Assembly (NCBI GenBank): GCA_017531845.1
Contig: JAFXKI010000010.1
Span: 62,001 to 126,000 of the forward strand
Length of the DNA stretch: 64,000 nucleotides
Source of the DNA: Opitutales bacterium
GTDB taxonomy: Bacteria; Verrucomicrobiota; Verrucomicrobiia; Opitutales; UBA953
Direction of reading: 5' to 3'
Each line of letters starts with the position of its first letter. The first letter of the stretch is position 1. Position numbers and translations under genes: made by a program. The notes under the pieces were generated by a model. The model was not told the DNA's origin. It did not search any database and saw only the letters and a list, made by a program, of their open reading frames with translations. This document shows positions 6,613-64,000 of the stretch, piece by piece.

Positions 6613-8142
6613 TTAAGAAATGACTCCCCAATATGCCAGAGAAGCCAAAATCATCAGCGCGGAAAAGCCGATCAGCACTATGCGCGCACACGTTCCCGTC
6701 GGCAAATACGTTTTCTCCTTGCCGGATTCGTCAGCGGAAAACGCTGCTCGGACCCAGCCGAAATAGTAGTAGATACTAATCACCACACATGCCAGCATCA
6801 CGGCAATCGAGCCATAGAATCCGGCTTGGAAGAGCACAAACAAAATGCCGAGCTTCGCAATAAACCCGACCGCCGGCGGAATCCCCGCGAGCGAAGCAAG
6901 CCCGAAAGCCAGCGTTCCCGCCAAGAGCGGATTATTCTTCGACAAGCCTTCGTAATCGTCGAGACTTTGCAAAGCATCATCCGACTGCGGCATGCGCGTC
7001 ATCACCGAGAAAATCGGATACACAGTCAAAATGTAAACAAGCAAATACGCGACAACGAGCACGAGCATTAGAACAATCCAATGCGGATCGGACACGTCTC
7101 GCGCGACAGCGATCGCGCCCAACAAGCCGAGCATCAGGTAACCGGCGTGCGAAACCCCGGAAAGCCCCAGCAAGCGCTTCACATTGCGTTGCCCGAGAGC
7201 CGTTACATTCGCGTAAACGACGGAAATCAGCGTGCACACCAAAAGCACAGGCAAAATCGTGTCCCAAATTCCGCCGAAAACCGACAGTAAAATCGCCATC
7301 AGGAAAAAGCCCGTCGCCTTCGATACGGTTGACAGGAAAAACGTAACGTGTGTCGGTGCCCCCTGATAAACATCCGGAATCCAAAATTGCATCGGGAACA
7401 CCCCAAGCTTAAACATCACACCGGCAAGCACCAAACCGGCGCCGACAATACCGATCAAATTATCCGGATTTTGCAAAAGAAAAGATGCTACCGTGCCGTA
7501 GCCGAGCGGATCGGCAAGAGTCGTAGCCGCCGTTCCCGCCATCGCCGCTCCGCCGTAGAGCAAAACAATCCCGAAAAGCATCAAGCCGCCGGAAACGCCG
7601 CCGGCAATCAGATATTTCACGCCGGCTTCAAGCGAATACGGACTGTTACGATTTGAGCCGACAAGCGCATAAAGCGAAACCGTCAGCGTTTCGAGCAAAA
7701 CGAAAAACGCGACGAAATTTGTCGTCTTCAGCAAGAGCGAAGCCGCCGCCGTCGCAATCAAAATCAAGTGCGTCGTCGCCGGAGCCGAAATTTCGGAATT
7801 GCTCTCGCGGGAACGCACAATTCCGGAAAGATTAATCGCCAAAAATGCGCACGCAACAAACAGCGGCGTCGAAATCTGCCCGAAAAGCGAATAGCCGAAA
7901 ATCGTCTTCGGTTCCGCACCCCACGACTGCGGGAACGCCCCGCCGACGAGACAAATCACCAGCGCGATCAACGCGGCATTGATAAATCCGCGCGCCGCAC
8001 GCTTCGCCCCGCAACATTTGCACGCCACGTCAAAAACCAGCGCAAGAAGTGCCAACACGCCAAGCACGATTTCCGGCAAGCTCATGTAGAGCGTATCCAT
8101 GCCGGGCTGCCAAGCTTTATAAAATTCAATTACGGAATTCAT
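6613..8142 (-). CDS. nuoN: NADH-quinone oxidoreductase subunit N
   Basis: 509 residues from the ATG at 8142, chosen because a GGAGA Shine-Dalgarno lies just upstream and because an upstream in-frame start would add a poorly hydrophobic tail. NuoN is one of the three antiporter-like proton-pumping subunits of complex I. About 14 hydrophobic helices are visible, and the conserved core G-A-P-T-H-V-T-F-F-L-S-T-V-S-K (about residue 250) carries the pumping lysine region of the Proton_antipo_M family. It is the last gene of nuoJKLMN, 28 bases after nuoM, and is followed by a terminator hairpin. Length and order are standard. Confidence 0.93.
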   Translation of the reverse strand: MNSVIEFYKAWQPGMDTLYMSLPEIVLGVLALLALVFDVACKCCGAKRAARGFINAALIALVICLVGGAFPQSWGAEPKTIFGYSLFGQISTPLFVACAFLAINLSGIVRSRESNSEISAPATTHLILIATAAASLLLKTTNFVAFFVLLETLTVSLYALVGSNRNSPYSLEAGVKYLIAGGVSGGLMLFGIVLLYGGAAMAGTAATTLADPLGYGTVASFLLQNPDNLIGIVGAGLVLAGVMFKLGVFPMQFWIPDVYQGAPTHVTFFLSTVSKATGFFLMAILLSVFGGIWDTILPVLLVCTLISVVYANVTALGQRNVKRLLGLSGVSHAGYLMLGLLGAIAVARDVSDPHWIVLMLVLVVAYLLVYILTVYPIFSVMTRMPQSDDALQSLDDYEGLSKNNPLLAGTLAFGLASLAGIPPAVGFIAKLGILFVLFQAGFYGSIAVMLACVVISIYYYFGWVRAAFSADESGKEKTYLPTGTCARIVLIGFSALMILASLAYWGVIS

Positions 8143-8170: not shown

Positions 8171-10084
8171 TTATTCGACAGAAATTTTATCGCCGTCCTC
8201 AAGCGGAACGTCCTCGACGTCTCCGTTTCTCAGCTCATCCAAGTCCACGGGAATGCGAGCCGTTACGCGAAGCACCACAGCAAAAGTCGCCTCGGAATCT
8301 GCCTTAGCCAATTCCAACGCCTTCAGCAGCGTCGCGTCCTCCGCGGACAAAACAAAATCGCCCTCTTCCTCCACGGCTCCGGAAACCGTAACCGTGATGT
8401 TTTTTGCAAGAATCAGCTCTTTCCCTTCCCCGCAGCTTTCGCAATTATCGGCGGGAACGGCAGGCAAAACCGGGAGCGGTCCGTCAAGAATGATAACGTC
8501 CTCATCTGCCGCTTCCGCTCCACAATTTTCCGCGCAAAATACTTTTGCCGCCGGAGCAAAATCCGCTTTCAGCGTCGCATCGATATTTTTCGTAATCAGC
8601 GACGGAACAAATCCGACAACCACCAGCGCCGCGAAAAGAATCAGCGCGGGAAGGCGTTCGGAGACCGTGATGTCGCGCACATTTTCAAAGGCTTCGTCCG
8701 AAAGAGCGACTCCGGTATTTTTTCCGTAGAAAATTTTCGCCACGGCACGCAATCCGTAAATTGCAGAAATGACAATGGAAAGCACAATCGCTCCGAGAAG
8801 CCAAGCCGGCTGAATATCCGCGAGCGACGTGAAAATCGTGAGCTCTCCCCAAAAGTTCGCAAAGCCCGGCAAACCGATGCTCGCCATCGTCGCCGCAACG
8901 AAGAACGCCGCCAACACCGGCGCCTTCGCCGTAAGTCCACCCATTTTCGTCATATCATACGTTCCCGTACGGTCATAAACGGATTGCCCGAGGTGGAACA
9001 AAAGCGCGACCGAAAGTCCGTGCGCAAACATCAGCACAACCGCGCCTCCAAGCCCGGCGACATCGCCGCCGGAAATGGCAAACGCTGCAATTCCGAGAAA
9101 TATCGGTCCCATGTGCATCACGGAGCTGTATGCCACCATTTGCTTCAAGTCCTTCTGCGTCATCGTAATCAAGCCGATGAGCACGATATTTCCGAGGGCA
9201 AGCCAAATAATCCAATTTTGCCAATCCGCCAAGCCGAGCGGGAGCGCAAGCGCGCCAAGCTGAATCAACCCGTAGAGACCGAATTTTTTCAAAACTCCCG
9301 CATGAAGCATCGAAATCGGAGTCGGAGCCACCGCATATGTATCCGGAGCCCACGAATGGAACGGGAACAACGAAACCAAAATTCCGAAGCCGAAAAGCAG
9401 AAGCGCAAAAATCACGGAAACATCACCGTTAAGCACCATGCCGTTTGCAACCGCCTGAGCAATTCCCAGGAAGCTGAATCCGTATTCCCCGGCACCCGCG
9501 CCCGCAAAATAAAGCGCAAACAACCCGGCAAGAGAAATCATCGCGCCGAGCGTGAGATAAATCGCCATCGTGATTGCCGTTGTTTTACGACCGTACCCGC
9601 CCCAAAGCAGGATCGCGACAAAGGTCGGGATCAGCGCAAATTCGTGGAAAATGTAAAATGAGAAAACATCAATCGCCGAAAACACGCCGAGAACGCCGCC
9701 GAACATCACCAGCGTTACCGCATAGTAGAGACCGCGAAGCTCAACATTTTTCGTTGAAAGTGCACGCAAGCCGGCGGCAACGCCGACGACCGCCGCCATC
9801 AAAAACAACGGAAGCGAGATGCCGTTCAATCCGAATTGTAACCAAATTCCGAGAGAGGGAACGCCCAGCATTTCGCAGGAAGAATAAAACGCGTAACCGC
9901 TAATCTTTTCCGCACACGGGAACGCGCAAAGCAACGCGATGGCAATCAGCGCGGGAACGACAAATCCGACGCCCGCAATCGCCTTCTTAGCACCGCACGG
10001 AAGCCATTTTGAAAATGCCAACGCCAGCGCCGCAACCAACGGCGTCGCTACAGCAACTTGCAAGAGAGTGGAAGCACAGCTCAT
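8171..10084 (-). CDS. nuoM: NADH-quinone oxidoreductase subunit M with C-terminal SLBB-like domain
   Basis: 637 residues, roughly 130 more than a usual NuoM. Residues 1 to about 510 are a normal antiporter-like proton-pumping subunit with some 14 helices, including the W-A-P-D-T-Y-A-V-A-P-T-P core and the K-M-G-G-L loop. After the last helix (ending G-F-V-P-S-L-I) comes a soluble tail with two cysteine pairs (C-x3-C near 522 and C-x2-C near 556), then about 75 residues resembling an SLBB beta-grasp domain: V-T-V-S-G-A-V near the start and V-P-L-E-D-G-D-K-I-S-V at the end, close to the end of the Wza-like protein at 62322. The gene is in frame to its stop with no sign of frameshift. The fusion is unusual for NuoM. 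Confidence 0.9.
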   Translation of the reverse strand: MSCASTLLQVAVATPLVAALALAFSKWLPCGAKKAIAGVGFVVPALIAIALLCAFPCAEKISGYAFYSSCEMLGVPSLGIWLQFGLNGISLPLFLMAAVVGVAAGLRALSTKNVELRGLYYAVTLVMFGGVLGVFSAIDVFSFYIFHEFALIPTFVAILLWGGYGRKTTAITMAIYLTLGAMISLAGLFALYFAGAGAGEYGFSFLGIAQAVANGMVLNGDVSVIFALLLFGFGILVSLFPFHSWAPDTYAVAPTPISMLHAGVLKKFGLYGLIQLGALALPLGLADWQNWIIWLALGNIVLIGLITMTQKDLKQMVAYSSVMHMGPIFLGIAAFAISGGDVAGLGGAVVLMFAHGLSVALLFHLGQSVYDRTGTYDMTKMGGLTAKAPVLAAFFVAATMASIGLPGFANFWGELTIFTSLADIQPAWLLGAIVLSIVISAIYGLRAVAKIFYGKNTGVALSDEAFENVRDITVSERLPALILFAALVVVGFVPSLITKNIDATLKADFAPAAKVFCAENCGAEAADEDVIILDGPLPVLPAVPADNCESCGEGKELILAKNITVTVSGAVEEEGDFVLSAEDATLLKALELAKADSEATFAVVLRVTARIPVDLDELRNGDVEDVPLEDGDKISVE

Positions 10085-10106: not shown

Positions 10107-12023
10107 TTAAAGAACACCGCAGACAAGTGCCGCCGCAATCACAAGCGCACCGAAAGCGATCCAAAAAACGGGAATGCCGCCGTTGCCGTTTTGAATATAA
10201 CGGCGGGCAACCGAGCCGAGAATCGCGGGAACGCCGCCGATTACGCCGCGCATCGCCAGCATATTGATCAACGCCGTGTCAAGCATGGCGACAAACATCG
10301 CCACCCGTTGCTGAACTTTTTCAATATACCAACCGTAAAATGCATCCATATAGCGATATTCCAACGCCTTATACAAAACAGGCGAGTGCTCCCGCAACTT
10401 GTCTTCTCCCGTCGAAGTGCGGTAGAACACCACTGCAAGCCCAAGCCCGACAACCAAAATAACCACGCCGAGAATAAACATCGGAGCCACCAAGCCCGCA
10501 CTCGCTAGCTTTTCGTGCAAATCGTGATACCCGTGCGCAAAAACGCCCGTCGCCGACGCCGGGAAAAGAGCGTTCATTTTTCCGTCAAGCCACGGAAGTC
10601 CCTGCGTTCCCGCAAGGAACCAACCGGCGCCGAGAGAAAAGATAACACCCAAAACAACGAGCGGAAGCGTCATCCACGGCGAAGATTCCTTCGCATGCTC
10701 TGCGCCGTGCCCGTGAGCGTTCCCGAGGAAAACCATCGCAAACATGCGCCCCGTGTAAAGCGTCGTTCCGATCGCGGCAATCACCAGCGCCACAAACGCC
10801 GGAATATTTCCCGCCAAATACGCGCCGGACAAAATCATGTCCTTCGAATACCAACCCGCAAACCACGGGAACGCGCAAATCGAAAGCCCGGCGACAACAA
10901 ACGCCGCTGCCGTAATCGGCATTTTTTTCAGCAAACCGCCCATTTTCGTCATATCCTGCTCATGGTGGCAGGCATGAATAACCGAACCGGAGCAAAGGAA
11001 TAAAGTCGCCTTGAAAAACGCGTGCATCGCCATGTGCAACAACGCGATTTCGGGAAGCCCCAATCCGATAGCCGCCCCCATGAAACCGAGGTGGGAAAGC
11101 GTCGAATACGCAAGCGATTTTTTAATATCCGTTTGCCCGAGTGCGCAGAGACCGCCAAGTGCCGCCATGCCCGCACAAAGCCAAAGCATCGTCGTCAGCA
11201 CCTCCGGCGTAAGCAGGAAGAAAATACGCACCATGAAAAATACGCCCGCCGCAACCATCGTCGCCGCGTGAATGAGCGCGGAAACCGGAGTCGGACCCGC
11301 CATCGCGTCCGTCAGCCAAACATGTAAGGGGAACTGAGCGGATTTTCCGAGAAAACCGCACATCAGAAGCAAGCCGATCGACGTGAACGTCATTTCGCCG
11401 CTTTTAATCAGCTCGCCAAGCTCGGCAAAGTTGGTCGTTCCGTATTGTTTGTAGCAAAGAATAATCCCGACAAGAAACCCGAGGTCGCCGACGCGATTTG
11501 CGATAAAAGCTTTTTTCGACGCCATCGCCGCATAATCCGTATCGTAATAATGCGCGATCAGCATATAGGAACTGAAACCGACAAGTTCCCAGAAAATAAA
11601 CGTCATGAAAAGATTGTTCGCGAGAATAATGCCCAAAATCGAAAACATGAACACGCTCAAGCCCGCGAAAAAACGCCCGCGAGCCTTGTCGTCATCCATA
11701 TAACCGACGGAAAAAACATGAATCCAAAACGCGACAAACGTTACGACGAAAAGCATCGCCGCGCCGTTTTTGTCAATCGAAAGCCCGATGGTTTCAAGCT
11801 CGGTAAAGCCGCCGAGCGCAAAACCCGGAAGCGTCGCGCTCGCCGTCGGATTCGCCGGGTCCAACCCAAGCAAAAGTGCCAACGACGCAAACAAAATCAC
11901 GCCCGCCGCCGTCACCGAAATCGCCGGAGCGACCACGCGGGAACGCCGAAAGAAAAACGCGGAAACAACAGCCGCCACCAGCGGTGTCAACAAAATCACG
12001 CGAAGTAAGGTTTCGTTATCCAT
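10107..12023 (-). CDS. nuoL: NADH-quinone oxidoreductase subunit L
   Basis: 638 residues, the usual size. NuoL is the most distal proton-pumping subunit of complex I. The core motifs are present: F-W-E-L-V-G-F-S-S-Y-M-L-I near residue 130, the L-H-V-W-L-T-D-A-M-A-G-P-T-P-V-S-A-L-I-H segment near 235, and lysines in K-K-S-L-A-Y-S-T-L-S-H near 315. The C-terminus contains the long amphipathic region and final helix characteristic of NuoL. It follows nuoK by 13 bases and precedes nuoM by 22 bases, consistent with one transcript. Confidence 0.95.
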   Translation of the reverse strand: MDNETLLRVILLTPLVAAVVSAFFFRRSRVVAPAISVTAAGVILFASLALLLGLDPANPTASATLPGFALGGFTELETIGLSIDKNGAAMLFVVTFVAFWIHVFSVGYMDDDKARGRFFAGLSVFMFSILGIILANNLFMTFIFWELVGFSSYMLIAHYYDTDYAAMASKKAFIANRVGDLGFLVGIILCYKQYGTTNFAELGELIKSGEMTFTSIGLLLMCGFLGKSAQFPLHVWLTDAMAGPTPVSALIHAATMVAAGVFFMVRIFFLLTPEVLTTMLWLCAGMAALGGLCALGQTDIKKSLAYSTLSHLGFMGAAIGLGLPEIALLHMAMHAFFKATLFLCSGSVIHACHHEQDMTKMGGLLKKMPITAAAFVVAGLSICAFPWFAGWYSKDMILSGAYLAGNIPAFVALVIAAIGTTLYTGRMFAMVFLGNAHGHGAEHAKESSPWMTLPLVVLGVIFSLGAGWFLAGTQGLPWLDGKMNALFPASATGVFAHGYHDLHEKLASAGLVAPMFILGVVILVVGLGLAVVFYRTSTGEDKLREHSPVLYKALEYRYMDAFYGWYIEKVQQRVAMFVAMLDTALINMLAMRGVIGGVPAILGSVARRYIQNGNGGIPVFWIAFGALVIAAALVCGVL

Positions 12024-12036
12024 GTTGAGAGAAAAT

Positions 12037-12336
12037 TTAGTTTTTCAGGGAGCGCAAATCGTCAAGTGCCACCGTTTTACGCTTGCGGAAAAGAGAAACG
12101 ATGAGCGCGAGCCCGACCGCCACTTCCGCCGCAGCAATCGTGATAATAAAGAAGCAGAATACCGCCCCGTCCATCAAATTACAGAACTTGGAAAACGCGA
12201 CCAACGCAAGCATCGCCGCCGTCAGCATCATTTCCAGCGACATATAAACGACGAGAATATTGCGGCGCACCACCGCCCCGGTCAACCCGATGCCGAAGAG
12301 CAAGCCGGCAAGAATGAGAAAATGAGATAACGTCAT
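12037..12336 (-). CDS. nuoK: NADH-quinone oxidoreductase subunit K
   Basis: 99 residues with three transmembrane helices, the standard NuoK size. The family pattern G-x-x-L-x-G-I-G-L-T-G-A-V-V-R-R-N near residue 15, M-S-L-E-M-M-L-T-A near 33 (with the functionally important membrane glutamate) and the A-E-V-A-V-G-L-A-L-I-V segment near 70 are all visible. It forms part of the proton path between NuoJ and the antiporter-like subunits. It lies 21 bases after nuoJ and 13 bases before nuoL. Confidence 0.95.
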   Translation of the reverse strand: MTLSHFLILAGLLFGIGLTGAVVRRNILVVYMSLEMMLTAAMLALVAFSKFCNLMDGAVFCFFIITIAAAEVAVGLALIVSLFRKRKTVALDDLRSLKN

Positions 12337-12357
12337 TGTTTGTCTCCCGAAAAAAAA

Positions 12358-12915
12358 TTATTTGTTTTTGCACGCGCACCCGCAAGATTCGGCGTTCCCG
12401 CGGCGCCGCGAATGCAACATAAACACGGCAACCATCGCCGCAAGAAGCAGCAATGCCGAAGCTTCCACGAGCACGACATATTTTGTAAACAGCGGCCAGC
12501 CGAACGCCGTCGCCTCATTGGAATACGCCAATGCAGGTGAAATATCCGAAACCGTTCCCGCGTCAATCGCAGACACCGCTCCGGAAAAACCGAACAGCCA
12601 AACCGTTCCCGCCGCACAAAGAGCAAAGAAAACCACTCCGCCGAGTGCCGAGCCGAACCACCCGCGCTTCAACGCGGGAACATCCGGATCCATCAGCATA
12701 ATGACGAAAAGGAAAAGCACAATCACCGCTCCCGCATAAACCATTATCAGCAACGTCGCCAAAAAGGGAGCATCCAGCAGAAACAAGTTAGCCGCCACGC
12801 CGACAATCGTAACAATCATCGCAACGACGCTGTTCACGGGCTTGCGGTTTAACACAACCAACAACGCACTTACCAAAGTCAGTGTAGCAAAAAGGTAGAA
12901 CAAAGTATCAACCAT
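12358..12915 (-). CDS. nuoJ: NADH-quinone oxidoreductase subunit J
   Basis: 185 residues from the ATG at 12915, preferred over an ATG 33 bases upstream because a GAGGAA ribosome-binding site precedes it and because the protein then starts directly at the first helix. Five helices are present, including the family motif M-V-Y-A-G-A-V-I-V-L-F-L-F-V-I-M-L-M-D. The extreme C-terminus ends in a small cysteine cluster (C-G-C-A-C), which is not usual. It is the first gene of nuoJKLMN; nothing like nuoI or nuoH lies upstream, where a 500-base repeat-rich gap begins, so nuoA-I must be elsewhere or absent. Confidence 0.92.
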   Translation of the reverse strand: MVDTLFYLFATLTLVSALLVVLNRKPVNSVVAMIVTIVGVAANLFLLDAPFLATLLIMVYAGAVIVLFLFVIMLMDPDVPALKRGWFGSALGGVVFFALCAAGTVWLFGFSGAVSAIDAGTVSDISPALAYSNEATAFGWPLFTKYVVLVEASALLLLAAMVAVFMLHSRRRGNAESCGCACKNK

Positions 12916-12948
12916 AAGTTCCTCAACTGTAAACCTTTCACAAGACAA

Positions 12949-15281: not shown

Positions 15282-15508
15282 TAGGGGAAACCTTTCGTTT
15301 TGGGATTTAGGGGTGGGGTGTTGTTCGTTCTACAACTCTGAATTATACAAAAAAAGCGCACACAGAAAAGAAAAAACGCTCAAGAAAGTAGCAAAAAAAA
15401 TGGTGTTCCCGTCTGTTTTCACCCGGAAACGCGAATTACACCTATAAGCCGTTTTTCTTGTTTTTTGCCGCGACTCGCGTATCATCTCGAATTTTCCTTA
15501 ACACGAAA

Positions 15509-17437
15509 ATGAAAGCTTTTTTTAAACAAATCGTTGCGAGTTTTTTCGGTTCCTGCTTCTCGGTTCTCGCACTCGGAATTTTTGTCGTTATCGGTTTTTT
15601 CGGTGCCGTCGGCACAGTAATAATGTCGTTTCAGGCGACGACGACCGGGGAAAAGCCCGTTGATTTCCCGAGCGAGGGCTCCGTTCTCGTCATTGATCTC
15701 TCGCGCGGATTTTCCGATGCGCCCACATTTTCCCCTGCCAATAATTTCGGTGTTTTCTCAAACGTAAAAGGTGCTTACGGGCTTCTCGACACGCTTCGCG
15801 CCTTGGAAGCGGCGCGTTTCGACGAATCCGTCAGCGGGATTCTGCTACTCGGCGGGAACGTTTCCGGCGCGCATGGCTTCGCCTCGGTGATGGAACTTCG
15901 CGATGCACTCATACATTTTCGTAGCGAAAGCCAAAAACCCGTTTTCGCCTATTTGCCGACGCCCGGCTACAAGGATTACTTGCTCGCAACGGCGGCAGAC
16001 GAAATTTGGATTCACCCGCTCGCCGAGCTTCCGCTTACCGGATTGAGCTCCACCGGACTTTATTTCAAAAATGCGCTCGAAAATCTCGGCGTCGGCGTTC
16101 AAATCACGCGCGTCGGGACTCATAAATCCGCCGTTGAACCGCTGATTTCGGACAAAATGAGCCCGGAAGACCGCGAACAGCGTTCCCGCATCACGGGTGA
16201 TCTTTGGAAGCTGACTTTGCTGAACATTTTCTCCGCGCGTAGCGGGAAAGCGGAATCCGACGAAGCGAAAAACCTGCTCGCGCAACACTTCTCCGTAGCT
16301 GTTGAAGCCGAAGGCTACGTTCCCGCGCAAGCCGCTCTGGAGAAAAAATTTGTCGATGCCGTTTACTATGAAGACGAAATGCTGGAACGCTTGAAAACGC
16401 ACACCGGCACGAACGAGCAAACGCATTCATTTCACCAAATCGCGCTTGATGATTACCTGCGCGCAAGCGGAATCTCCGTGGAGCCGCCGCTGGTATCCGC
16501 CGCATTCCCGTTGCCGGAGCCCGATGCCACCGTAGCGGTTCCGCAGAGCATTGCCGTCGTTTGCGCGGAAGGAGAAATTGTGGACGGCTACGGTGCGGTC
16601 AACGAAGTCGGCGGCGCATGGTTCTCGCGAGCGTTGCGCGAACTGCGCAATGATGATTCCGTAAAAGCCGTTGTTTTGCGCATCAACAGCCCGGGCGGGT
16701 CGGTTTTTGCGAGCGAGCAAATACGCCGGGAAGCAGAGCTGCTGGCGAAAGAAAAAACGCTCGTCGTTTCGATGGGCGATGTTGCGGCAAGCGGCGGCTA
16801 CTGGATTTCCACTCCGGCGAAAAGAGTTTTTGCCGATCCCGCGACGATTACCGGCTCCATCGGCGTTTTCGGTGTGCTTTTTAATTTTGAAAATCTCGGG
16901 AAAAAAATCGGCATTACGTCCGAGGCGGTGCTGACGGCTCCTTTCGCGGAATTAAATTCCGCGCGACGTCCGAAAACACCGGAAGAAATGGCGGTTTTCC
17001 AAAAATCGACGGATCGGATTTATGCCGATTTTCTCAATCTCGTCGCAAAAGCTCGCGGAATTTCCGTGCAGGAAGCGGACGCACTCGGGCAGGGGCAAGT
17101 TTGGAGCGGCATTTCCGCAGCAGAAACAAAGCTGGTCGATGAACTCGGCGGGCTTGCCGCAGCAATCGCGTTTGCGAAAAAAGATGCCGGGCTTGATGAC
17201 GATATCGAAATCATTTCCGTTCCCGGCGAAGTTCACCGCTTTCAGGAATTGCTTGACCGTTTCAGCGACGCGCCGATTCCCGTCGCAAACGCGGGAACGC
17301 AACACGCGCTCGCAGGCAACCATCCGGCACTTCGTTCCGTTTTGAGAAATCTGGAACGCGTCGCGCAACGCCTGCGCGCATTTAACGATCCCAACGGGCT
17401 TTACGCAAGAATGCCTTTCGATGTCGAGGCAAAGTAA
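15509..17437 (+). CDS. sppA: Signal peptide peptidase SppA, 67 kDa type
   Basis: 642 residues from the ATG at 15509 (an upstream TTG would add a poor leader). One membrane helix near residues 8-40 is followed by two tandem crotonase-like peptidase S49 domains. The Ser/Lys dyad of the long SppA class is visible: Lys206 in T-H-K-S-A in the N-terminal half and Ser428 in A-A-S-G-G-Y-W in the C-terminal half. SppA degrades remnant signal peptides in the membrane. It is followed 27 bases later by the SMUG1-type glycosylase gene. Length matches the E. coli-type (two-domain) enzyme rather than the short Bacillus type. Confidence 0.92.
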   Translation: MKAFFKQIVASFFGSCFSVLALGIFVVIGFFGAVGTVIMSFQATTTGEKPVDFPSEGSVLVIDLSRGFSDAPTFSPANNFGVFSNVKGAYGLLDTLRALEAARFDESVSGILLLGGNVSGAHGFASVMELRDALIHFRSESQKPVFAYLPTPGYKDYLLATAADEIWIHPLAELPLTGLSSTGLYFKNALENLGVGVQITRVGTHKSAVEPLISDKMSPEDREQRSRITGDLWKLTLLNIFSARSGKAESDEAKNLLAQHFSVAVEAEGYVPAQAALEKKFVDAVYYEDEMLERLKTHTGTNEQTHSFHQIALDDYLRASGISVEPPLVSAAFPLPEPDATVAVPQSIAVVCAEGEIVDGYGAVNEVGGAWFSRALRELRNDDSVKAVVLRINSPGGSVFASEQIRREAELLAKEKTLVVSMGDVAASGGYWISTPAKRVFADPATITGSIGVFGVLFNFENLGKKIGITSEAVLTAPFAELNSARRPKTPEEMAVFQKSTDRIYADFLNLVAKARGISVQEADALGQGQVWSGISAAETKLVDELGGLAAAIAFAKKDAGLDDDIEIISVPGEVHRFQELLDRFSDAPIPVANAGTQHALAGNHPALRSVLRNLERVAQRLRAFNDPNGLYARMPFDVEAK

Positions 17438-60021: not shown

Positions 60022-62283
60022 CTAAGCGTCTTTGCTGATTTTCACTTCAACTTCTTTCGCTTGGGCGGAATGGTAGTACTTGGAATACATACCGTACTGC
60101 CCGGAGCTGACGTAGTAACGAGCCGTTTCACGAACCATTTGATTCATCACGGCTCCGAAAACCGGAAGTTTGGATTCCTGAATACGATGGAGATTGTTCT
60201 TAATCATCGTGCGTTGAACCGTATTGAAGCGCACGGTGTAAACAACGCCGTCGCACAAAGGAAGCAAGTTCAGCACGTCGGAAACAGCACCGATCGGCGG
60301 AGTATCAATAAAGATGCGCGTATAGCTTTTCTTGAGTTCTTCAAGCATTTCGCGGAACTTTTGGCTATTGATAACCTGCGTCGGATTTTTGCAGAATGCT
60401 CCCACCTGCAACACGTCAAAATTAGGACGAACGTCGCGAATAATCGCCTCGTCCAAGGACATGGTTCCTTCCATATAGCGCGTCAATCCGCGCTCATCTT
60501 TAGACAAGCCCAAAGAGTTCCCGACGTTCGGCAAGCGCAAGTCGGCATCAAGCACCAATACGCGTTCCCCGTGCGCAGCATAAGTTTGAGCAAGATTTGT
60601 CGAAACGAAAGTTTTCCCTTCGGAGGGCATCGTCGAAGTAACTAAGAAAACCTTTGCGTTCCCGGATTGTTCCCCGATTTTTAAAGCCGAATAAATCGCG
60701 CGAAACGCTTCCGTCGCCCCGCGATCCTTTCCGTTGGAAACGACACAGGCTTTGTCCACGGCAGATTTAACGTGATTCAGGCGCGTAATAGTTCCCAAAA
60801 GCGGAATTCCGAGGAAGCTTTCAATATCACGGGTCGATTTGATGCGATCGTCAAAGAACGACAGCAGAACAATGACACCGGCACCGATTGCAAGCCCGGC
60901 AACGACGCCGAAAATAGCATTGAGAACAAAGTTTTTGTTGGAAGCGCGCGTCGGAACTACCGCCGGATCAAGAATACTGACAATCGATGAAACGGAGCCG
61001 ATGACCCGCATCTTCAAATCTTCCAAATTAAACTTCAGGCGCTGGAGCAATTCTTCGTTTAAGAGAATTTTCTTGTCCAAAGCCGTAAGCTGTGAAATAG
61101 CGTCACGCAGGCGCACCAACTCAACTTCTTTTTCCTCCGCACGTTTTTGTGCCGATTCGTAACGGCGCTTTGCCGCGACAAAGTTCGAATCAAATTCCGC
61201 CTCGGCTTTTTTCACGGCTTCAGCAAGCTCCGCCTCCGCCTGCTCCAACTTTTGCGTTTCCGCAATGAGAGTCGGGTGACTCTTCCCGTATTTTTCAAGC
61301 AATCCGGTAATCGAGATGCGCAAGTCTGCCACGCGGGGAAGCAACGTCGCAACCAATTGATTACTCGTAATCGAAGGCTGGGACAACAATGAAAGTCCGG
61401 CGTCTTTGGTCTTTTGAATTTCATTACGAATCGCAAGCAAATCTTCGTAATTCTTGCGCTCCGTGTCCCGCACGGAAATAACGCTGGCAAGTTCCGCATT
61501 CGCCGTCCCCATTTCCGTCGTAAGCAAGCGCTCATTCTTGATGAGCATATTGCGTTCCTCACGCTGCTGAGCAAGCGTATGCTCCATTTGCTCAATCTGC
61601 ACACGCGTCGTCTCAATAACCGGACTGGTCAGATTTGCACGGTCTTCGGAATTATATTTCTGGATTTCTTCCGCAAAATAATTTGCCAACTTTTCGGCAA
61701 CTTCCGGACGGCGGTGCGTATATTCAACAAACGCAATAAACGTCGCTTTCTGGGGAACGACATTGCGGTGCTTTGCAATAACTTCCGTCGGCGTCAGCGG
61801 TCCGGAAAAAACGTTCCCGCCCTGATACGGACGGACGACTTCCGTCAGTTCCGGCGAAGTCAGACGCGATTGAACGCGCTTAACGATCGTGCCCGAACGC
61901 ATGATTTCGAGCTGTGTCTGAAAGTCTTCCTGCCCGGAGATCGCATCCAGAGAAGTCGTATTCGCTCCGCTTCCCGGAGCAGCCTGAACCGCATTTTTCA
62001 AAACACGGAGACGTGCGGAAGCCGTATATTCCGGAACAACGTTATACGTGTAAATGAGCGTTCCCGTGACGACGACGAAAACGGATAAAATCAAATACCA
62101 AATGCGTTCCCGGAACATCGCAATCCAATCGGAAAGCGTCCGCGTTTGCATCACATCAGAAAAGCTCGCCGATTCACCATAACCGGCTCCGTAGCCTCCG
62201 TAGTTATTATAACCGTAGCCATAACCCGACGATGTGCGAGGCGCATTTTCAGTTACGACTTCGTCTTCATTTAAATTCGACAT
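60022..62283 (-). CDS. wzc: Polysaccharide co-polymerase and tyrosine autokinase (Wzc type)
   Basis: 753 residues. The N-terminal tail (about 15-40) is unusual: a Tyr/Gly-rich segment of repeated Y-G and N-N-Y-G. The Wzz domain begins at the first transmembrane helix (about 63-83), a long coiled coil spans about 180-440, and the second helix lies near 475-495. The cytoplasmic kinase has Walker A M-P-S-E-G-K-T-F-V-S-T, Walker A' V-L-V-L-D-A-D-L-R and a Tyr cluster near the C-terminus (Y-Y...Q-Y-G-M-Y-S-K-Y-Y), the site of autophosphorylation in Wzc. It controls export and chain length of exopolysaccharide, in a unit with wza upstream. Confidence 0.93.
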   Translation of the reverse strand: MSNLNEDEVVTENAPRTSSGYGYGYNNYGGYGAGYGESASFSDVMQTRTLSDWIAMFRERIWYLILSVFVVVTGTLIYTYNVVPEYTASARLRVLKNAVQAAPGSGANTTSLDAISGQEDFQTQLEIMRSGTIVKRVQSRLTSPELTEVVRPYQGGNVFSGPLTPTEVIAKHRNVVPQKATFIAFVEYTHRRPEVAEKLANYFAEEIQKYNSEDRANLTSPVIETTRVQIEQMEHTLAQQREERNMLIKNERLLTTEMGTANAELASVISVRDTERKNYEDLLAIRNEIQKTKDAGLSLLSQPSITSNQLVATLLPRVADLRISITGLLEKYGKSHPTLIAETQKLEQAEAELAEAVKKAEAEFDSNFVAAKRRYESAQKRAEEKEVELVRLRDAISQLTALDKKILLNEELLQRLKFNLEDLKMRVIGSVSSIVSILDPAVVPTRASNKNFVLNAIFGVVAGLAIGAGVIVLLSFFDDRIKSTRDIESFLGIPLLGTITRLNHVKSAVDKACVVSNGKDRGATEAFRAIYSALKIGEQSGNAKVFLVTSTMPSEGKTFVSTNLAQTYAAHGERVLVLDADLRLPNVGNSLGLSKDERGLTRYMEGTMSLDEAIIRDVRPNFDVLQVGAFCKNPTQVINSQKFREMLEELKKSYTRIFIDTPPIGAVSDVLNLLPLCDGVVYTVRFNTVQRTMIKNNLHRIQESKLPVFGAVMNQMVRETARYYVSSGQYGMYSKYYHSAQAKEVEVKISKDA

Positions 62284-62321
62284 TGGAGAAAAAAATTTAG
62301 TCAGTTATTCCGAATCTGCGA

Positions 62322-62960
62322 TTAAATCGCGCTATCCGGGACATATACGCGATCGCCCTCTTCAAGCGGGAAATCCGGCTCGTAACCTTCCTGAATCGCC
62401 TTCAAATCCACTTCCCAAGTTTGGATAACACCATCTCGGGAACGGGTTACTTTCACACTCGTGCGGGATCCGCGGGGAAGCACACCGCGCGCGGCGTCAA
62501 TCGCTTTTCCCAGTGTCAGCTCTTCTTCAATAGGAATCAGGACCGGACCGGGACTTGCAACGAATCCGCTGACGTAAATACGCCGCTCGGCATACGCAAT
62601 AACGGTCAACGTAACCTGAGGATTCGTGTAAAACCCTTCGTCGCGATAGCGTTTTTCAATAGAATCCTTGAGCTCGCTAAGCGTCTTCCCGGCGACCGTT
62701 ACCTGCCCGATGAAGTTCAGCGTAATATTGCCTTCCTTCGAAACGCGATATTCTCCGCGATTATCCGGCTCGGCATACATTTCGAAACGCAATGTATCCA
62801 ACGGACGGATACGGTAATCCTGCGTTCCCGGACCGTCTTCGCTCAAATTCGATGCCGGATAACCGGCGTGCGGCTGAGCGGTCCGGCAAGCGGAAAAACC
62901 GAGGCAAAAGAAAAGAGCCGCAAGAAACATCGCGGCTCGAATCAAAACATTTGATTTCAT
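62322..62960 (-). CDS. wza: Outer-membrane polysaccharide export lipoprotein (Wza type)
   Basis: 212 residues. A lipobox (G-F-S-A-C) puts the lipidated Cys near residue 25. The Poly_export domain starts at D-Y-R-I-R-P-L-D-T-L (about 48) and is followed by one SLBB domain (about 128-207: V-S-G-F-V-A-S-P-G-P-V, then F-P-L-E-E-G-D-R-V-Y-V-P). It lacks the second SLBB domain and C-terminal amphipathic helix of E. coli Wza, so it is the short form. It precedes wzc by 38 bases. Confidence 0.9.
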   Translation of the reverse strand: MKSNVLIRAAMFLAALFFCLGFSACRTAQPHAGYPASNLSEDGPGTQDYRIRPLDTLRFEMYAEPDNRGEYRVSKEGNITLNFIGQVTVAGKTLSELKDSIEKRYRDEGFYTNPQVTLTVIAYAERRIYVSGFVASPGPVLIPIEEELTLGKAIDAARGVLPRGSRTSVKVTRSRDGVIQTWEVDLKAIQEGYEPDFPLEEGDRVYVPDSAI

Positions 62961-63025
62961 TTCAGATTGAGGTTGCTTAATAGCTTCAACACACGAAAAA
63001 ATCGAATGTCGTAACTCCCTTCCGC

Positions 63026-64000
63026 TTAGTAGCGGAGGGAGATACCGACCGTAACGATGTTGTTCGTATAGTCCGAGCCTTCCTGATTGGATTCGTCAAT
63101 CGCGAGCGAGTAATTCGCGTAAGCACTCGCCCATTCGTTGATGGCGTAAGAAGCACCGACCGTCATTTTGTAAATGTCGTCTTCACGAGCGGATGACTGA
63201 TAATCGTCGAGACGATAGCCGAGGCTCGCGTTCGCGGACCAGAAATCGTCGATACGATAGTTGGCGGAAAGCGTCGCTCCCGTCGCGATGATGCCTTCAC
63301 CGGCGGAACCGAGTTCAAAGTCACGATTGAGCGTCAATGCGGTGGAAAGTTTTTCCGTAGCCTGATAATCCGCCGTGATGGACATACCGAGCGTGTCGCG
63401 ACCATCAAGATTATCAATCGTGCGGTCAGAGTAATCGGAAGTCGTAACACCGATACGCCCGTTGAGGGAAAGCTTTTCCCAAGCATTACCTTCCGCGGAA
63501 AGGCCGAAGAACCAAACCTGTTCCGTTCCCGCCGTTTCCCCCGCCGCACGATTGCGTTCGCTTGTCGCGAGGTCGACGTAGCGGTATTCGGCGGAAAGAC
63601 CGGCGTTGAGCTTTTCCGTTACCGCGTAGTAAAGATACAGCGGAATGGAGTATTGCTGACGATCGTTGTAATAGTATTTCGCTTCGCTGTTCTGATAAGT
63701 CGTGCCGCTCCAGTTGAGCCCGGAACGAAGTGAAGTTTTTTCGCCGACTTTGTAGGAAAGAATGCCCTTCGCGTAGTAGTTGTAAGAACGCGTCATCGTG
63801 CCCTTCGTGTAGGAATCACGGGCAGAAGCACTTTGATTGTGGTGGAAACCTCCGGCAACCGTAAGTTTGAGCTTTTGCCCTTCGCCGCCGTGCGTGAACG
63901 TAAAGTCGATATTTTCGAGCGCGCGATTGTTGTCGGTTTCATCCATATAGAAAAGGATGTTTTCGACAAAACGAAGATTAAATTTACTGCGAGCTTCGTC
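63026..64000 (-). CDS. Outer-membrane beta-barrel protein, 5' end beyond window
   Basis: The frame is open to the right edge; 324 codons plus stop are visible. The sequence is a chain of alternating beta strands with terminal S-L-R-Y, and strand pairs such as L-S-A-E-Y-R-Y-V-D, G-R-I-G-V-T-T-S-D-Y and G-A-S-Y-A-I-N-E-W-A-S-A-Y-A-N-Y spaced every 10-15 residues. This matches the outer-membrane beta-barrel proteins often found in exosortase-type exopolysaccharide loci. It precedes wza by 65 bases on the same strand, so it may be the outer-membrane partner in polysaccharide secretion. Confidence 0.85.
   Translation of the reverse strand, partial: DEARSKFNLRFVENILFYMDETDNNRALENIDFTFTHGGEGQKLKLTVAGGFHHNQSASARDSYTKGTMTRSYNYYAKGILSYKVGEKTSLRSGLNWSGTTYQNSEAKYYYNDRQQYSIPLYLYYAVTEKLNAGLSAEYRYVDLATSERNRAAGETAGTEQVWFFGLSAEGNAWEKLSLNGRIGVTTSDYSDRTIDNLDGRDTLGMSITADYQATEKLSTALTLNRDFELGSAGEGIIATGATLSANYRIDDFWSANASLGYRLDDYQSSAREDDIYKMTVGASYAINEWASAYANYSLAIDESNQEGSDYTNNIVTVGISLRY

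Follow-up and report, generated by a model that had tools for sequence, protein, structure and literature searches.

Few membrane proteins are as conserved as the core subunits of complex I, and we know of no case in which a core pumping subunit is extended by a folded periplasmic domain. SLBB domains make up a superfamily with two families, Nqo1/RnfC/PduS and OPX/ComEA (PMC1796856). In NuoF/Nqo1 and RnfC, the domain is cytoplasmic and fused to a Rossmann-like domain, and NuoF is itself part of complex I. In the class 3 (Wza-like) OPX proteins it is periplasmic (PF10531/PF22461), and in ComEA it forms the N-terminal part of an outward-facing protein (PMC1796856). For OPX proteins, contact between the SLBB domain and polymer in the periplasm has been predicted, and the proximal SLBB of Wza has been cross-linked to polymer (PMC9603273); cell polysaccharide or the sugars of peptidoglycan have been suggested as ligands of the OPX and ComEA domains (PMC1796856). 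Here we analyse the gene for NuoM, the antiporter-like subunit M of complex I, in an Opitutales bacterium (GCA_017531845.1). It lies at 8171..10084 on the minus strand of a 64,000-nucleotide stretch of contig JAFXKI010000010.1 (positions 62,001 to 126,000; the window), and its product carries an extra C-terminal domain of the SLBB type. A literature search of open papers found none with both NuoM and SLBB, and as far as could be found the pairing of NuoM with an OPX-type SLBB is an undescribed combination of known parts.

In the list of open reading frames of the window, nuoM is a single frame of 637 codons. Residues 1-506 are an ordinary NuoM: TIGR01972 matches residues 8-506 with 323.6 bits against a curated cut-off of 263.8 (E 1.9e-96), which is thus passed over the 14-helix core, and Pfam Proton_antipo_M matches residues 137-440. 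About 130 codons for soluble residues continue in frame beyond the last NuoM helix, as the original prediction, made from the sequence alone, had noted. That prediction had placed an SLBB-like domain at 8171-8575. The domain does lie in this tail, but is restricted to the final 79 residues of the protein (559-637; 8174..8410, minus strand). The remaining segment, 8411..8575 on the same strand (residues 504-558), is an Ala/Pro/Glu-rich linker with an IIL-x-G...VPA-x-x-C-E-x-C-G motif that is conserved in the tail alignment. The solved NuoM/ND4 chains among the matches listed match the core only (to residue 515), whereas the tail adds about 130 periplasmic residues with an SLBB.

Pfam SLBB_2 matched the window tail at residues 565-636 (E 0.012, 16 bits) and, searched at E up to 10, the tails of all five genomes found to carry it (best E 1.8e-4). 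All of these matches are below the gathering score of 27, so SLBB membership rests on profile comparison, for which both the Wza-type and the NuoF comparison profiles were built from related genomes. A profile of the five tails aligned with the Wza-type OPX SLBBs by hhalign at 98.7% and a score of 81.2 over 74 of 79 columns, with 34% identity, a figure that the window's own Wza also gives in profile alignment. Against NuoF SLBBs the match was partial (52.6%, score 26.8, 50 of 79 columns), with only the first half aligning. Column-shuffled controls (n=100 each) reached at most 17.2 for Wza and 16.0 for NuoF, and the linker scored 12.8 against the Wza profile. The similarity previously noticed between PLEDGDKISV of the NuoM tail and PLEEGDRVYV of the window's Wza, a short, class 3-like OPX protein (62322..62960, minus strand), is real: it spans the whole domain, including the closing P-L-x-x-G-D-x-I-x-V, and is far above chance. 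In a small tree NuoF separated from Wza and the tails with 100/100 support. These comparisons place the tail in the OPX/ComEA branch rather than the NuoF/RnfC branch, and an SLBB of the NuoF/RnfC type was ruled out by the profile scores (about 27 against about 81) and the tree; the likeness to ComEA is by description rather than by profile.

Searches outside NuoM gave the same picture. The tail-profile matches covering the SLBB part (profile positions ~68-139) were Wza-like open reading frames among relatives, and seven further matches in the phylum (E up to 0.001) were open reading frames of 196-304 residues that also aligned to the window's Wza by blastp. Shorter or off-register matches (L058, L059, L062, L063, L065, L071) were not Wza-like and look like chance, and a search of solved structures with the tail profile gave weak, chance-level matches only (ribosomal S1, E 0.014). 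A Poly_export domain was not found in the NuoM protein (Pfam, E up to 10), nor did a Pfam scan find a Rossmann-like partner domain as in NuoF. The NuoM tail carries an OPX-type domain, but NuoM is not an OPX protein: it differs from the class 3 proteins in being without Poly_export and a lipoprotein signal, in sitting on an inner-membrane proton pump and in the strong acidity of its SLBB.

The side of the membrane on which the tail lies can be predicted from the topology of NuoM. Subunits L, M and N are alike in having fourteen helices in similar orientation, with M_K173 exposed at the cytoplasmic surface (PMC3046159); we place this residue in the loop after helix 5. Among 39 NuoM homologues, conserved basic residues follow helix 1 and lie in the loops joining helices 5 to 6 and 13 to 14, consistent with the positive-inside rule. 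The tail is acidic (30 D/E and 10 K/R), which also fits a periplasmic position. The last transmembrane helix (residues ~476-497; 8594..8659, minus strand) runs from cytoplasm to periplasm in this hydropathy and conserved-charge profile. A NuoM of fourteen helices whose helix 5 is followed by a cytoplasmic loop would therefore end in the periplasm, as would the SLBB domain, across the membrane from NuoF and the iron-sulphur (Fe-S) clusters. This location and the OPX/ComEA assignment leave the parallel with NuoF and RnfC drawn in the original prediction unsupported. Its surprise at an SLBB on a membrane pumping subunit was justified, as the fusion to a complex I pumping subunit is confirmed and unusual. 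We are highly confident of both the OPX-type identity and the periplasmic location of the tail.

The fusion is a real and selected one. The same full-length architecture is present in five metagenome-assembled genomes of the genus Candidatus Spyradosoma (Opitutales), that of the window and four further species, as stop-to-stop frames of 642-653 codons with 76-100% identity; four of the five are also represented by public contigs (L033-L036), including Candidatus Spyradosoma merdigallinarum (L035). In the SLBB part, nonsynonymous divergence (dN) between the window and its nearest species (G003) was 0.000 with a synonymous divergence (dS) of 0.247, and between the goat and deer species 0.006 with 0.434. 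More distant carrier pairs gave dN/dS values of mostly 0.08-0.34, with one of 0.42; dS estimates beyond about 1 suffer from saturation and are not to be read closely. The SLBB was more constrained than its own linker in most carrier pairs, and linker amino acid identity between distinct carrier lineages (0.47-0.63) was below that of the domain. The SLBB domain is thus under purifying selection, and is the product of neither a frameshift nor decay. A frameshift joining a separate gene to nuoM, the refuting case named in the original prediction, was ruled out along with misassembly and chimerism by a frame common to five species with purifying selection on its tail. A separate SLBB gene with an internal ATG start was also ruled out, since no Met codon was found in the tail of any carrier; this covers ATG starts and not GTG or TTG ones. 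Faster evolution of nuoM on gain of the domain was not apparent, with nuoJ diverging about equally and nuoN more.

All eight sampled genomes of the genus have nuoM and five carry the tail. The carriers are a small group of gut bacteria, and a tree of the NuoM core unites them in a single clade (100/100 support). In the three non-carriers (G001, G004 and G007) about 28-44 low-complexity residues follow the core; nuoF is present in all three, indicating that they keep complex I. No other NuoM with an SLBB domain was found among 57 relatives, and a homologue search, as originally suggested, detected no further full tail in samples of 373 genomes of the order and 388 of the phylum; a scan of the whole collection used exact peptide patterns, which reach close relatives only. 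Ten NuoM loci from the class, most picked for their long open frames, had short or low-complexity tails, none of them an SLBB by eye. Because the carriers form a single supported clade and the domain is absent from every other NuoM among the 57 relatives, the simplest reading is a single gain of an SLBB by NuoM within a subclade of Candidatus Spyradosoma.

The gene order in two carriers hints at where the domain may have come from. In G003 and G005, wza, wzc, a transglutaminase-like gene, rpsB and nuoJKLMN follow each other on one strand, which places wza about 9 kb ahead of nuoM; G003 also has a beta-barrel gene before wza. With wza so near nuoM in these genomes, local capture of an OPX SLBB is plausible. 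It is not borne out by the sequence tree, and the 16 kb contig of carrier G002 gave no wza match. A recent copy of the species' own wza is unsupported, the tail profile scoring the own Wza at 14.9 bits against 23 bits for some distant ones.

What might such a domain do? The reading we favour, with a little less than even confidence, is that NuoM acquired a periplasmic OPX-type SLBB in a single event and that this domain, held on a flexible linker, serves for docking or tethering. The SLBB would follow transmembrane helix 14 into the periplasm on a linker of about 55 residues, which would let it reach out from the membrane arm. There it most likely acts as a non-catalytic module whose target is part of the envelope: a strand of polysaccharide (exopolysaccharide or peptidoglycan), or else a partner protein. 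Such binding could position or stabilise complex I. The ligand binding and the tether role are inferred from the roles of the OPX and ComEA SLBBs, and we regard tethering as a tentative mechanism. Physical coupling of complex I to the envelope, in which a sugar-binding SLBB would anchor the pump to peptidoglycan or exopolysaccharide or would station it next to the polysaccharide exporters encoded beside the nuo cluster in relatives, is unlikely.

Several points weigh against the docking proposal. The sister species manage without the domain, and the ligand is a suggestion by analogy. The Pfam matches are below the gathering score, and the branch of the NuoM domain in the tree is long; the tree singles out no donor. 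Structure prediction of the tail, which the original prediction had called for, was run twice with AlphaFold2 on five-sequence alignments; it recovered partial beta-beta-alpha order, but at low confidence, with a mean predicted local distance difference test (pLDDT) score of 38.1 (134 residues) and 42.5 (80 residues), so that the models neither support nor contradict a beta-grasp fold. Finally, the SLBB is strongly acidic (19 D/E, 7 K/R), while the Wza SLBBs of relatives are nearer neutral, and for this reason it may no longer bind what Wza binds.

The same acidity, unlike Wza's, keeps in play an assembly or stability role, in which the SLBB would serve as a protein-protein module, as in the Wza ring, packing against the membrane arm (NuoL/M/N) at its periplasmic face or dimerising, without binding sugar. 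The antiporter-like subunits of complex I and Mrp are linked at the periplasmic side by beta-hairpin elements (PMC7419157), and the conserved IIL-x-G...VPA...C-E-x-C-G motif lies just between helix 14 and the SLBB. However, the linker differs in length and sequence among carriers, which suggests a mobile rather than a packed domain, and such a role has no precedent, the tail being unmatched by the solved complex I chains among the matches listed. We consider this role somewhat unlikely.

An SLBB fragment might also have been captured by chance and tolerated as a near-neutral addition, as the periplasmic C-terminus of NuoM accepts extensions. Opitutales NuoMs commonly end in low-complexity tails, which differ in length, one class relative (L114, genome G747) has a NuoM-like frame with more than 200 low-complexity residues beyond the last helix, and three species of the genus do without the domain. 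Tolerance alone is nevertheless improbable given the greater constraint on the SLBB than on the linker in most pairs, the dN of 0 and 0.006 against dS of 0.25 and 0.43 in the two closest pairs, and the persistence of the domain across the whole carrier clade.

The original prediction had named holding a metal among the possible roles of the tail, with its two Cys pairs. C517-x3-C521 (8522..8536) and C548-x2-C551 (8432..8443; both minus strand) are present as described, but the tail alignment shows that the first is not conserved: the goat and deer species have C-x2-C in its place, and Ca. S. merdigallinarum lacks it. C548-x2-C551-G is kept in all five carriers, and as the first pair varies, only the second is a family feature. 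The latter, ahead of the SLBB, probably forms a local periplasmic disulfide. The short tail that closes the NuoM of a related genus (L017, G013) contains C-P-H-C-G, which recalls this motif. Although the window protein has both pairs and the C-x2-C-G is invariant, a redox or metal-binding domain like the SLBB of NuoF or RnfC, with the pairs holding a metal or Fe-S centre, is very improbable, as one pair is missing from a carrier, the SLBB is of the OPX type with only partial similarity to NuoF, its predicted location is periplasmic and away from the electron-transfer chain, and no CxxCH haem motif was found in the tail.

In the window, NuoM clusters with other nuo genes in the order nuoJKLMN, all on the minus strand: nuoL, nuoK and nuoJ lie upstream (10107..12948; nuoL identified by Pfam and synteny, nuoK and nuoJ named from sequence and position), and nuoN (6613..8142) starts 28 bases past the nuoM stop codon. 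Complex I genes are otherwise scattered in this genome, with nuoJ-N in the window (contig C8), nuoE/F on contig C4 and a 49-kDa (NuoD) family match on C5. In the non-carriers G001 and G004 nuoMN stand apart from nuoJKL (L108, L109, L110): they are on different contigs in G001, and in G004 nuoL was not within the 20 kb taken around nuoM. About 45 kb (12948-57814) separate nuoJ from rpsB/wzc/wza in the window, compared to ~1 kb in G003 and G005. In these two relatives, a gene that lies within this interval in the window (15458-17437) sits on other contigs, so the separation looks more like the result of a chromosomal rearrangement than of a mobile element. At 60022-64000 a beta-barrel protein, the short OPX protein and Wzc are encoded in a row, an arrangement resembling that of the class 3 OPX and beta-barrel porin in Myxococcus (PMC9603273).

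A selected, lineage-specific SLBB on NuoM would demonstrate that complex I can be connected to the envelope through its periplasmic face, and the presence and absence of the domain within one genus provide a ready natural comparison.
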